The position numbers and the translations under genes are program-made. A stretch of DNA of 30,585 nt from the IMG/VR virus record IMGVR_UViG_3300017760_000049, positions 1 through 30,585 of that record; one strand, 5' to 3'. This stretch comes from a virus. Shown piece by piece: positions 23,874 to 30,585 of the stretch (positions are counted from its first letter, which is position 1; each line of letters begins with the position of its first letter). The notes beneath the pieces are model-generated. The model did no database searches and had not been told where the DNA came from. It worked only from the letters and a program-made list of their open reading frames with translations.

Positions 23874-23929
23874 AACCGCCTTATAATGCTTAACCTCTAT
23901 TACAGTCAAGAATAAATGCCCAAAAATTT

Positions 23930-23956
23930 AAAAGTTTATAAAAGGTCTAAACTTTT
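23930..23956. repeat. Nine-base inverted repeat, candidate operator
   Basis: AAAAGTTTA (23930-23938) and TAAACTTTT (23948-23956) are exact inverted copies separated by nine bases. The repeat overlaps the -10 element and most of the spacer of the candidate leftward promoter, so a bound dimer would block polymerase. Confidence 0.55.
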
Positions 23957-23964
23957 TATTGCAA
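23935..23964 (-). promoter_or_regulatory. Candidate leftward promoter
   Basis: On the minus strand TTGCAA (23964-23959), 18 bases, then TATAAA (23940-23935). Transcription would start about 55 bases before the first zinc-ribbon gene. A second weaker match, TTGACT-18-TATAAG, lies closer to the gene, but its -10 touches the ribosome site. Confidence 0.45.
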
Positions 23965-24154
23965 AATTAAAAGCGATTCGACCCCACCCCCCAATCGAAC
24001 CCCCCAGTGTTTGCAACTCTTTGTCAGACCATATTGTTTACCTGAGATGTGTGAAGACCCCGGCCAGTATAATTTATTATTCAGACGAGGGCGTTGTTTT
24101 GGACGATTGTCAAACAAATTGATCAGAAACTTTCAGGCTGGCACATCTGATGCT

Positions 24155-27492: not shown

Positions 27493-28140
27493 ATGAATAT
27501 AGCACACGCATTCAACGTAGAAGAAGCTGAGAAGTATGGTGTAAACAAAGCTATACTTCTACAGCATATACGCTTCTGGGTATCAGAGAACAAAGGTAAG
27601 AAGAGTCATACACATGATAGTAAGACTTGGATGTACCAGAGTGCTGCTGATATGCATAAGCACTTCCCTTACTGGTCTAGGCTGAAAATACATCGTATGC
27701 TGGCCAGTATGGAAGAAGATGGATTAATCGCATCCGGCAACTACAACAAGCTAGGGTTTGATCGCACCAAATGGTATACCTTAACTGATACAACGCAATG
27801 TTCATTTGAGTCACCTCTGACTGTTCAAAACGGAACAAAGAGAGATGTCGATTCTGAACAACCAATACCAGATAATAACACAAATAATAAAACAGATAAT
27901 ATGTTTGAAGATTACTGGGCTATGTACGGACGCAAAGGTAGCAAGCAGATAGCTAAGAGGTATTGGTCTAAGTTATCTGAAGATGATAAGGTAGATATTG
28001 GTAAAACAATTATACCATACACTATGAGCAGAGATAAAAAATACTGCCTAGATTTTCAGGGTTACATAAACCCGGTCAATCGTAGGTGGGAGGATGAAAT
28101 CATTAGTCACAATGAGCATAAAAAAAGGTTGAGCATATGA
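27493..28140 (+). CDS. Winged-helix replication protein (helicase loader / initiator-like)
   Basis: The 215-residue protein starts MNIAHAFNVEEAEKYGVNKA followed by a hydrophobic helix and an aromatic W-containing strand. Residues 45-85 form a winged helix (SAADMHKHFPYWSRLKIHRM, then EEDGLIASG). The C-terminal part (FEDYWAMYGRKGSKQIAKRY) is the common W-x-x-Y-x-R-K-x-x-K block of phage replication proteins of the DnaD/DnaT/O-like type. It probably recruits the DnaB helicase encoded next; the two genes overlap by ATGA. Confidence 0.8.
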   Translation: MNIAHAFNVEEAEKYGVNKAILLQHIRFWVSENKGKKSHTHDSKTWMYQSAADMHKHFPYWSRLKIHRMLASMEEDGLIASGNYNKLGFDRTKWYTLTDTTQCSFESPLTVQNGTKRDVDSEQPIPDNNTNNKTDNMFEDYWAMYGRKGSKQIAKRYWSKLSEDDKVDIGKTIIPYTMSRDKKYCLDFQGYINPVNRRWEDEIISHNEHKKRLSI

Positions 28141-29405
28141 AAAAATTACCTGTTTCTTCGGAATCAGAGGAGGGTGTGCTGGGGTCGGTCTTACTTGACC
28201 CTAGTATAATTCCTAATCTACCGCTACACAAAGAAGACTTCTATGACCCACGCAATGCACATCTATGGGATTACTTAGTACAGCAGTATTCAGAAGGTAA
28301 AGCGATGGATGCCATTACGATTGGTGCATGGCTAGAGTCGCACAACAAGCTAGGATCAATAGGAGGATATGATAGGCTAGTAGAGTTACAGAGAGATACC
28401 CTGATACCTTGTCATTCACAGTATTATGCAGAGGGTGTACTGAAAACATCTAAGCTACGCCAGGAGATCAAGGTGCTTGAAGATGGGTTAGCTGTAGCCT
28501 ATGGTGGAGATACTTCATCAGAGGGAGTCATAAGCGGTTTAATCCGTGCAAATGTAGATGTTGAGAAGGACTTAACTCTGGAGCAGTATGGAGAGAAGTT
28601 CATCGAAGACTGCATCAATGGACAGTGTGGTCACTTTGGATGGTGGTGCAATGAGTGGAATGAAAAGCTAGGCCGACAATCATCTGAGTTGGTACTACTA
28701 CACGCACCTCGATCAACCGGTAAGACTGCGATGATGCTACAATGGCAGATAGCGGCACATATGCGTGGGGACAGAACGCCACTTGCATCTATCGAAATGC
28801 TGAAGGGTGAGTTACTACCTCGATACCTGGCTCATGTTGGGCAGATGGATACCTACCGCATGAAGGTAAGGCCTGTCGGTGCTACACAGGACGAAGCAGA
28901 ACGAGCAAGAAAAGCATTATCTCAGGTAGCTAAACTTAATCTATGCGTTCGTGATAAAGGTATGACCATTGAAGATATACGTGGTTGGGCTGTAGCTGAA
29001 TGGCGTAATGGAGCACAGGCTATATTCATTGACAACTTGCTATCTATTTCAGATGGCGGTAAAAAGTATGATAGTAAGACTATTATGTATGATGATTTCA
29101 TACGCAAGTTCCGTGACCTTCGTGATGATCTTAAGATACCAATCATTATCTTAGCACACCCGAATGCCAATATGGAGATCGCATGGTCTAAAGATGTAGA
29201 GAACTTTGCTGATCAGATTATACTGTTAGCTAACGTGCCGTCAGATGGCATGGATGTTAATGGAGAAAGAGTACAACAGATGCAGTTAGATGGAACTCAT
29301 GTTATTGCTAAGTTCCAAAAGAATAGACAAGGACTAAGCCCGGTGGCTCACCTTGAATTTAAAGGCGATACACAAACATTTAGACACATAAGATGGGAGA
29401 TATAA
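28137..29405 (+). CDS. dnaB: Replicative DNA helicase, DnaB family
   Basis: The 422-residue protein has the DnaB N-terminal helical domain (SEEGVLGSVLLDPSIIPNLP to about residue 110) and a RecA-fold ATPase with Walker A APRSTGKT (190-197; K196) and Walker B ending IFIDNLL with D299, followed by a conserved PIIILAHPNAN segment. It forms the hexamer that unwinds the fork. It lacks a primase fusion, and no primase was found in the window. The start overlaps the initiator stop; the stop TAA overlaps the ATG of the alternative frame and lies one base before the GTG of the methyltransferase. Confidence 0.95.
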   Translation: MKKLPVSSESEEGVLGSVLLDPSIIPNLPLHKEDFYDPRNAHLWDYLVQQYSEGKAMDAITIGAWLESHNKLGSIGGYDRLVELQRDTLIPCHSQYYAEGVLKTSKLRQEIKVLEDGLAVAYGGDTSSEGVISGLIRANVDVEKDLTLEQYGEKFIEDCINGQCGHFGWWCNEWNEKLGRQSSELVLLHAPRSTGKTAMMLQWQIAAHMRGDRTPLASIEMLKGELLPRYLAHVGQMDTYRMKVRPVGATQDEAERARKALSQVAKLNLCVRDKGMTIEDIRGWAVAEWRNGAQAIFIDNLLSISDGGKKYDSKTIMYDDFIRKFRDLRDDLKIPIIILAHPNANMEIAWSKDVENFADQIILLANVPSDGMDVNGERVQQMQLDGTHVIAKFQKNRQGLSPVAHLEFKGDTQTFRHIRWEI

Positions 29406-30585
29406 TGTGGATACTACCAAAACAATTACACACCTTAGCCTCTGTAGTGGATACAGCGGAATCGGACTCGGACTTAAGAGAGTTCTGCCAAACCTGCGAG
29501 AAATCGCTCATGTGGAGATCGAAGCCTTCGCTGTTGCGAACCTGGTGTCGAAGATGGAATCGGAACAAATTCATGCAGCTCCTATATACACGAATGTTAA
29601 GACCTTCCCATACGAACGATTTTCTGGATGCGTGGACATTCTATCAGGGGGATTCCCGTGTCAACCGTTTAGTGCAGCAGGAGCTAGAAAGGGAGTTGAT
29701 GACCCTCGCCACCTCTATCCCTACATCAGCAGAGGAATCAGTAAATGCAAACCTAGAATTGTTTTCCTCGAAAACGTTGAAGGAATCATCTCAAGCAAAA
29801 CAGCAGACGAAGAGTCAGTTCTCAAGTATGTCCTCGGAGACTTGGAAAGCATGGGTTACCGAGCAACGGCAGGAATATTCTCAGCGGCTGAAGTTGGCGC
29901 ACCTCACCAAAGAAAAAGAGTCTTCATCATGGGGTACTCCTGCGACAAACGATGCAAACAAAACGCCACATTGCGAAATAAACAGCAATCAAGCAGGATT
30001 GACGAGGTCAGTAGGGAGAGCCGAGGCAAATTGGGCTACTCCGAGAGCGAGTGCAACAGACTCGACAAGACCGAATGGGAAGGGAGGAATACCACTAGCA
30101 CAACAAGCAAAGAGTTGGGCGACTCCGAACACAATGGACACACTACCTGCACGGAGTCCAGAGAAGTTAGCGGAAGCCAAGAAAAAGGGCGGATGCAAGA
30201 ACTTGAGGGAAGAAGTAATGAACTACCCAACACCGAGAACATCGGATGCGGAGGGCGGTCGAATAGAGACCTTCGTGGAGGACGGAACATTCAAGAGCAA
30301 GCGTCACAAAAGCAACCAAACATTCGGGGCGAAGCTGAGGGATGCGGTGGAAAGTTACCCAACACCGACAGCCAGGGATTGGAAGGGTTGCGGGAATGCA
30401 ACAACTCGAAAGGATGGCAAACACCGGATGGACAACCTAGAAGCTATTGTGAAGTATGGCCCGCAAGACCCAACGAACCACAGTACGAATGGGAAGAACC
30501 ACGCACTAAACCCAAGTTGGGTAGAGCAGCTAATGGGACTACCAGTAGGGTGGACAGACTTAGACTCTTGGGTAACGGAGTCGTA
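29405..30585 (+). CDS. Second reading frame overlapping the methyltransferase gene (candidate dual-coded protein), cut by window edge
   Basis: This frame is open from ATG 29405 to the window end (393 codons). The recognisable part begins near 29828 with MSSETWKAWVTEQRQEYSQR and LKLAHLTKEKESSSW. It then has five W/Y-x-TP modules (about 29930, 30032, 30116, 30224, 30356; for example WATPRAS, WATPNTMD, YPTPRTSD, YPTPTARD) and the block LNPSWVEQLMGLPVGWTDL at 30506-30562. I recall the same module and block types as recurring phage proteins, so this is probably a real product. Likely starts are ATG 29699 (GGGAG upstream, spacing short), ATG 29828, or ATG 29405, which shares the methyltransferase ribosome site. 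Function is unknown; LNPxWVExLMGxPxGW resembles motif IX of some C5 methyltransferases, suggesting a link to target recognition. Confidence 0.55.
   Translation, partial: MWILPKQLHTLASVVDTAESDSDLREFCQTCEKSLMWRSKPSLLRTWCRRWNRNKFMQLLYTRMLRPSHTNDFLDAWTFYQGDSRVNRLVQQELERELMTLATSIPTSAEESVNANLELFSSKTLKESSQAKQQTKSQFSSMSSETWKAWVTEQRQEYSQRLKLAHLTKEKESSSWGTPATNDANKTPHCEINSNQAGLTRSVGRAEANWATPRASATDSTRPNGKGGIPLAQQAKSWATPNTMDTLPARSPEKLAEAKKKGGCKNLREEVMNYPTPRTSDAEGGRIETFVEDGTFKSKRHKSNQTFGAKLRDAVESYPTPTARDWKGCGNATTRKDGKHRMDNLEAIVKYGPQDPTNHSTNGKNHALNPSWVEQLMGLPVGWTDLDSWVTES
29407..30585 (+). CDS. DNA cytosine-5 methyltransferase, C-terminus cut by window edge
   Basis: Chosen start GTG 29407 (MDTTKTITHLSLCSGYSGIG), six bases after GGGAGA. 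Motifs seen: I (LSLCSGYSGIGLGL, 10-23), IV (FPCQPFS, catalytic C85), VI (E122-N123-V124), VIII (QRKRVFI, Q168-R171) and X (LGNGV, about 388-392). The enzyme would transfer methyl from S-adenosylmethionine to C5 of cytosine. The region between motifs VIII and X, where the target-recognition domain belongs, is polar and repeats LxxxxxxxG-type modules (ELGDSEHNG, ELPNTENIG, KLPNTDSQG). It overlaps a second long open frame. The gene is the last visible in the replication operon and probably protects new phage DNA from restriction, or marks it; no nuclease partner is seen. Confidence 0.9.
   Translation, partial: MDTTKTITHLSLCSGYSGIGLGLKRVLPNLREIAHVEIEAFAVANLVSKMESEQIHAAPIYTNVKTFPYERFSGCVDILSGGFPCQPFSAAGARKGVDDPRHLYPYISRGISKCKPRIVFLENVEGIISSKTADEESVLKYVLGDLESMGYRATAGIFSAAEVGAPHQRKRVFIMGYSCDKRCKQNATLRNKQQSSRIDEVSRESRGKLGYSESECNRLDKTEWEGRNTTSTTSKELGDSEHNGHTTCTESREVSGSQEKGRMQELEGRSNELPNTENIGCGGRSNRDLRGGRNIQEQASQKQPNIRGEAEGCGGKLPNTDSQGLEGLRECNNSKGWQTPDGQPRSYCEVWPARPNEPQYEWEEPRTKPKLGRAANGTTSRVDRLRLLGNGVV

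Follow-up and report, generated by a model that had tools for sequence, protein, structure and literature searches.

A phage locus that probably encodes the two subunits of a C5-cytosine DNA methyltransferase in two frames of the same DNA

The virus record analysed in the present study (hereafter the window, which is the entire record of 30585 bases) ends inside a gene in which two reading frames on the same strand are both open and both conserved. On the evidence of its sequence and that of its homologues, this locus is very probably a two-subunit C5-cytosine DNA methyltransferase encoded by one DNA stretch read in two frames. Frame A (29407–30585; this and all features given below are on the + strand) would encode the catalytic, alpha-like subunit, as indicated by matches to PF00145, TIGR00675 and phrog_363, and frame B (29405–30583) would encode a beta-like subunit carrying the target-recognition region and motif IX, as indicated by its openness in homologues, the purifying selection acting on it and a match to phrog_1008. 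Both genes are cut at their 3′ ends by the end of the record.

Frame A is open from GTG 29407 and frame B from ATG 29405, each for 393 codons up to the end of the record and with its stop codon beyond it, which confirms, as far as the record reaches, the first-pass annotation of two stop-free frames of approximately 393 codons. An in-frame ATG at 29393, upstream of ATG 29405, would extend frame B to 397 codons. The two frames had been described as offset by two bases. This offset needs correcting: frame B lies in the +1 frame relative to A, and the overlapping starts form AUGUG (29405–29409). The claim that such openness is unlikely to arise by chance held in two null models: shuffling the synonymous codons of A produced 7.6 ± 1.8 frame-B stops and resampling A with the codon usage of the window produced 18.8 ± 3.2, and a value of zero was never reached in 20000 replicates of either. 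The +1 frame of five other long genes in the window contains 5.9–7.5 stops per 100 codons. The dual-coded gene (29407–30585) has a GC content of 0.50, compared with approximately 0.40 for most of the window, and this might reflect either the avoidance of AT-rich stops in two frames or acquisition of the gene. Elsewhere, the sign of the GC skew flips at 23900–24000, where transcription turns from the − to the + strand, and this switch divides the window into a half with terminase-like and structural genes and a replication half.

Viral contigs were scanned for homologues twice, once with each frame as the seed, and the recovered loci encode both. In 135 distinct genes, frame B averages approximately two stops, which with few exceptions fall in the last codons past the GWT block, and the four other non-A frames of the same genes contain 8 to 20. 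Before B's own end, a single frame-B stop was found in 127 viral homologues, whereas permutation of the synonymous codons of A predicts 743, and flanking genes show 5.8 stops per 100 codons in the corresponding frame. As the loci found with A alone match this pattern, the low number of stops is not an artefact of the B-seeded search. Stops do not accumulate in frame B of these 127 genes, and the kilobase-scale dual coding proposed in the first-pass annotation is supported.

Selection on each frame was assessed by classing substitutions between related pairs according to their effect in each frame and dividing by the opportunity for each class. Changes silent in A that alter B occurred at 0.26–0.29 of the both-silent rate over codons 1–178 and at 0.13–0.20 in the module region of the second half, and changes silent in B that alter A at 0.10–0.13 over codons 1–178, 0.66–0.76 in the module region and 0.25–0.57 at the 3′ end; the both-silent class is small and single ratios are therefore approximate, but the contrast with a control of 56 flanking-gene pairs, in which the pseudo-B value was 1.05, is large. 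Divided into bins of 30 codons, the first 180 codons gave B/A rate ratios of 1.1–2.9 in every bin, compared with approximately 6.3 in the control. These data show that the first half constrains both frames, the middle mainly B and the end mainly A, so that frame A, being only weakly constrained there, is nearly free in the central module region until its last motif. Selection is thus not confined to one frame, both being constrained over codons ~1–178, and by this evolutionary evidence both frames are coding. We consider it extremely improbable that frame A is the sole gene and frame B a by-product of A's amino acid composition and of shared ancestry. Frame A is indeed the better recognized protein and the homologues do share ancestry, but this reading has to accommodate the hundreds of predicted and missing stops, a module region that conserves B and not A, likewise in an independent gut-bacterial group, and the persistence of B where A is broken (loci L035 and L078) or has ended (L131, L137 and L139). 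B as a shadow of A was rejected on the shuffling nulls, the stop counts in homologues and the flanking-gene controls.

Both frames begin at the AUGUG double start (29405–29409), in which the ATG of B (29405–29407) overlaps the GTG of A (29407–29409). The ATG also overlaps the TAA stop (29403–29405) of the upstream ORF (28137–29405), assigned as replicative-helicase-like by inspection of its motifs, giving the string TAATGTG. A Shine–Dalgarno sequence GGAG (29396–29399) is common to both starts and lies at aligned spacings of 12 (AUG) and 14 (GUG), where the definition of aligned spacing and the window for dual initiation are those of PMC9841429. This is exactly the spacing of the published dual-initiation experiments in Escherichia coli, in which Kohl et al. 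found that ribosomes use both codons of AUGUG at 12/14, the AUG approximately 2–3-fold more (PMC9841429). The double start is conserved, with AUGUG in 92 and GUGUG in four of approximately 125 homologues, and many of the remainder have one start per frame a few bases apart. Among the double-start sites of the family the commonest spacing is also 12 (range 9 to 18), and a Shine–Dalgarno sequence of at least 4 nt is absent at 38 of 88 sites.

Frame A matches PF00145 (E 3.6e-38), TIGR00675 (E 1.1e-33, above its cut-off) and phrog_363 (E 2.7e-52), and has a PDB match to M.HhaI. From the sequence and the alignment with M.HhaI, we located motif IV, GGFPCQPFSAAG, with the catalytic cysteine in PCQ (29647–29682), motif VI, ENVEG (29770–29784) and motif VIII, QRKRVFIM (29908–29931). 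Motif X, LLGNGVV (30565–30585), is followed directly by the end of the record, and homologues end in LLGNGVVP. The chain carries the catalytic domain with motifs I, IV, VI and VIII as well as the C-terminal motif X (GN.V), and by these motifs and profiles we identify it as a C5-cytosine DNA methyltransferase with motifs I–VIII and X. No motif IX was recognized in the frame A chain, and a counterpart block is found in frame B.

The N-terminal part of frame B (29405–29902; MWILPK..SLMWRSKPS..TW..RW..., with a helix ETWKAWVTEQRQEYSQRLK) has conserved columns and is under B constraint in every 30-codon bin, and most homologues open with MWI(L/I)PK. It is followed by the xTP modules WGTP, WATP, WATP, YPTP and YPTP (29930–30505), the region with an omega_B of 0.13–0.20 against an omega_A of 0.66–0.76, and the frame A sequence over the same DNA is a weakly constrained linker (LGYSES, LGDSEH, LPNTEN...). 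By a simple pattern count, B homologues contain 0 to 7 such modules. The motif IX-like block LNPSWVEQLMGLPVGWTDL (30506–30562) comes next and was assigned from conserved columns and profile alignment; its V, M, G, P and W are invariant across 73 homologues. Both the xTP repeats and this block were found as first annotated. In profile alignment, the block of B aligns with the block that directly precedes motif X in single-chain methyltransferases. This single-chain block in turn lines up collinearly with residues 273–307 of M.HhaI, at −3.7 bits and not significantly by itself, and for this reason we took the one-chain relatives as evidence instead of the residue-level match. Scans of frame B against Pfam and NCBIfam gave no meaningful match, and an AlphaFold model of B alone (mean pLDDT 56, pTM 0.28) matched no PDB structure; given this poor model, the role proposed for B rests on sequence, motif order and the one-chain relatives. 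Frame B does, however, match PHROG 1008, labelled ‘DNA methyltransferase’, over residues 207–386 (E 2.1e-22). The earlier statement that the second product has no described function therefore needs amending: this match, the fusions to a catalytic domain described below and the resemblance to motif IX and target-recognition regions of C5 methyltransferases make it most plausible that B is a second subunit of the methyltransferase.

The methylase of mycobacteriophage Rita joins both types in one chain, with PHROG 363 (A-type) over residues 1–385 and PHROG 1008 (B-type) over residues 196–388 (E 2e-61), and a direct comparison agrees with these profile matches. A model of a further single-chain relative, L177 (mean pLDDT 68.9, pTM 0.72), superposes end to end on M.HhaI, with residues 1–381 on chain residues 12–326 (Z 22.5, rmsd 3.3, 236 aligned). 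In one-chain fusions of this kind, the B modules and block sit exactly between motifs VIII and X. This placement bears on the possibility that B, although translated, is unrelated to the methyltransferase, for example a regulator or an anti-restriction protein, and overlaps A by chance. We consider this very unlikely: no Pfam or NCBIfam family matches the N-terminal part of B and no PDB fold resembles the model of B alone, as might hold for such a partner, but it would leave without explanation the position of its modules and block in the fusions, the lack of a recognizable motif IX in A and the switching of motif X between A and B.

That switching is seen among natural variants of the locus. 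In L038, L039 and L136, A ends early and motif X has moved into B; in L035 and L078, many stops interrupt A in the module region and B is intact; and in L131, L137 and L139, B runs past the end of A and has more xTP modules on the C-terminal side of the motif IX block, which gives the impression of modules relocated or added there. These variants lend support to frame B encoding a protein of its own and to A being able to dispense with its module region. In L035 and L078, motif X is retained further downstream in frame A, in a stretch that has a possible start (MADTT...), and the enzyme is possibly in three pieces there, judging by sequence. Two further loci differ in other ways. In L127 (3001–4720), an HNH-endonuclease-like frame starting MKAKHSVLIKHCSHCGKEMQ directly follows the B block and frame A is open throughout, which looks like a homing-type insertion that kept A open. 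In L165 (uncultured phage KM23-C739), frame A is broken by a frame change between motifs I and IV, which is either a sequencing error or real.

The one-chain relatives also speak for a programmed frameshift, in which ribosomes would start in A and shift +1 into B after motif VIII to yield one fused methyltransferase, with frame B before the shift not being protein. The authors of PMC4351075 left a frameshift possible in Cluster O mycobacteriophages, in which methylase genes overlap, and in L038, L039 and L136 a shift from A to B would restore the motif order I–VIII–IX–X. We nevertheless think it unlikely here. A frameshift explains neither why B is constrained from its first codon on, in all 30-codon bins, nor why it has its own conserved start, and these two observations disfavour a model based on frameshifting only. 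In addition, motif X of the window lies in A, so that a second shift back would be needed, and there is no stop at the junction in the window.

Under the two-subunit reading that we prefer, a single ribosome-binding site would direct initiation either at the AUG (B) or at the overlapping GUG (A). Product A would comprise the SAM-binding and catalytic motifs I–VIII, a weakly constrained linker and motif X. Product B would begin with a helical N-terminal part, continue with xTP modules in variable number, which are the probable DNA-recognition region, and include the motif IX block absent from A. The two would assemble into a single active enzyme, which probably modifies the phage DNA against host restriction. 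To a broader picture we attach an even chance, namely that completely co-extensive frames starting at one AUGUG, a subunit ratio set by the choice of start, a recognition subunit with exchangeable xTP modules and an overprinted domain, and a catalytic frame that is only a passive open linker to motif X across the module region are the main organization of this prokaryotic branch of C5-methyltransferases.

The arrangement is not restricted to the window's group, and related genes of many phages and prophages share it. The B block also retrieved bacterial and archaeal loci. Among the best 80 of 327 hits, a catalytic domain lies upstream in 77, the block is in the +1 frame of this domain in all 77 and A is open past the block in 70 of them; these loci are related to varying degrees, so the numbers are not a tally of independent events. 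In an independent set, mainly from gut bacteria, the pattern recurred from approximately codon 141 to the block, with values of 0.11 for B and 0.42 for A, and constraint on B was weaker (0.56–0.64) before that point, which argues that the N-terminal part of B is specific to the window's group. The arrangement is also found in cultured phages, among them epsilon15, Acinetobacter phage ABMM1, Microcystis phage Mae-JY24, Synechococcus phage Ssp-JY39, Paenibacillus phage Shelly and Mycobacterium phage Krili. Most of the phage records examined annotate one frame, either A alone or B alone, and few annotate both; the record of Shelly gives B as ‘g55 internal gene’. Frame B is annotated and the catalytic frame A omitted in L162 (Ssp-JY39), L164 (Sc-Yong805-2) and L175 (SOVA965), and frame A is annotated and frame B omitted in L161, L163, L166 and L174. 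The dual-frame arrangement explains this inconsistency of the public annotation.

To our knowledge, cellular organisms and DNA phages rarely have long overlaps on the same strand that are conserved over hundreds of genes. The kind of locus described here is already known from M.EcoHK31I (PMC3404938) and the Cluster O genes (PMC4351075). In the searchable literature, which leaves most subscription papers outside, only mentions of M.EcoHK31I and M.AquI and PMC4351075 were found for a dual-coded phage methyltransferase family, and a paper on Paenibacillus larvae phages contains no text on the internal methyltransferase gene. What is new within that literature is that the overlap is complete, starting from a shared AUGUG, and deeply conserved, that selection on the two frames has been quantified, that motif X can switch frame and that the +1 arrangement is so widespread. 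As both parts of a single enzyme appear to be encoded by the overlap, the choice of start codon could set the ratio of the subunits, and the overlap could force their co-inheritance. The locus would also offer a natural case of AUGUG dual initiation, which has hitherto been studied mainly with reporters.

Among characterized enzymes, the second polypeptide of EcoHK31I was reportedly described by Lee, Kam and Shaw in 1995 as translated from a different frame within the first gene. The large subunit of M.EcoHK31I contains motifs I–VIII and X as well as the described TRD, and motif IX is in the smaller second polypeptide (PMC3404938). The window has the same division, with motifs I–VIII and X in A and the motif IX-like block in B as judged from their sequences, and on the preferred reading its split enzyme would resemble M.EcoHK31I in mechanism. 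It differs in that B spans all of A from the shared AUGUG and has an extra N-terminal part and xTP modules, and in that the recognition region is proposed to be in B, not in the large subunit. M.AquI is naturally split after motif VIII, with the later motifs in the second subunit (PMC3404938), and L038, L039, L136, Krili and Kingmustik0402, with motif X in B, resemble it; the window, in contrast, has motif X in A and two completely overlapping genes. The rnpA–rpmH genes of Thermus are likewise read in two frames from adjacent starts with a common ribosome-binding site (PMC9841429). Unlike the window, they have AUGGAUG, with rpmH nested inside rnpA, and they encode unrelated products. The multispecific C5-methyltransferases of the Bacillus phages SPR and phi3T carry exchangeable recognition modules in tandem, located after motif VIII and before motif IX. 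The xTP modules of the window, which are candidate recognition units, lie in the same position. The SPR and phi3T enzymes differ in being single chains in a single frame. Finally, the Cluster O mycobacteriophages have two overlapping methylase genes with coding potential in both frames, and whether these give two products or a frameshifted one was left undecided by the authors (PMC4351075). Corndog 6/7 (Cluster O) and the ‘g55 internal gene’ of Shelly belong to the same family as the window and have the same +1 overlap, but differ in that the overlap is partial or nested and the starts are separate. Our analysis bears on the Cluster O question, and for the window's group it argues for two products.
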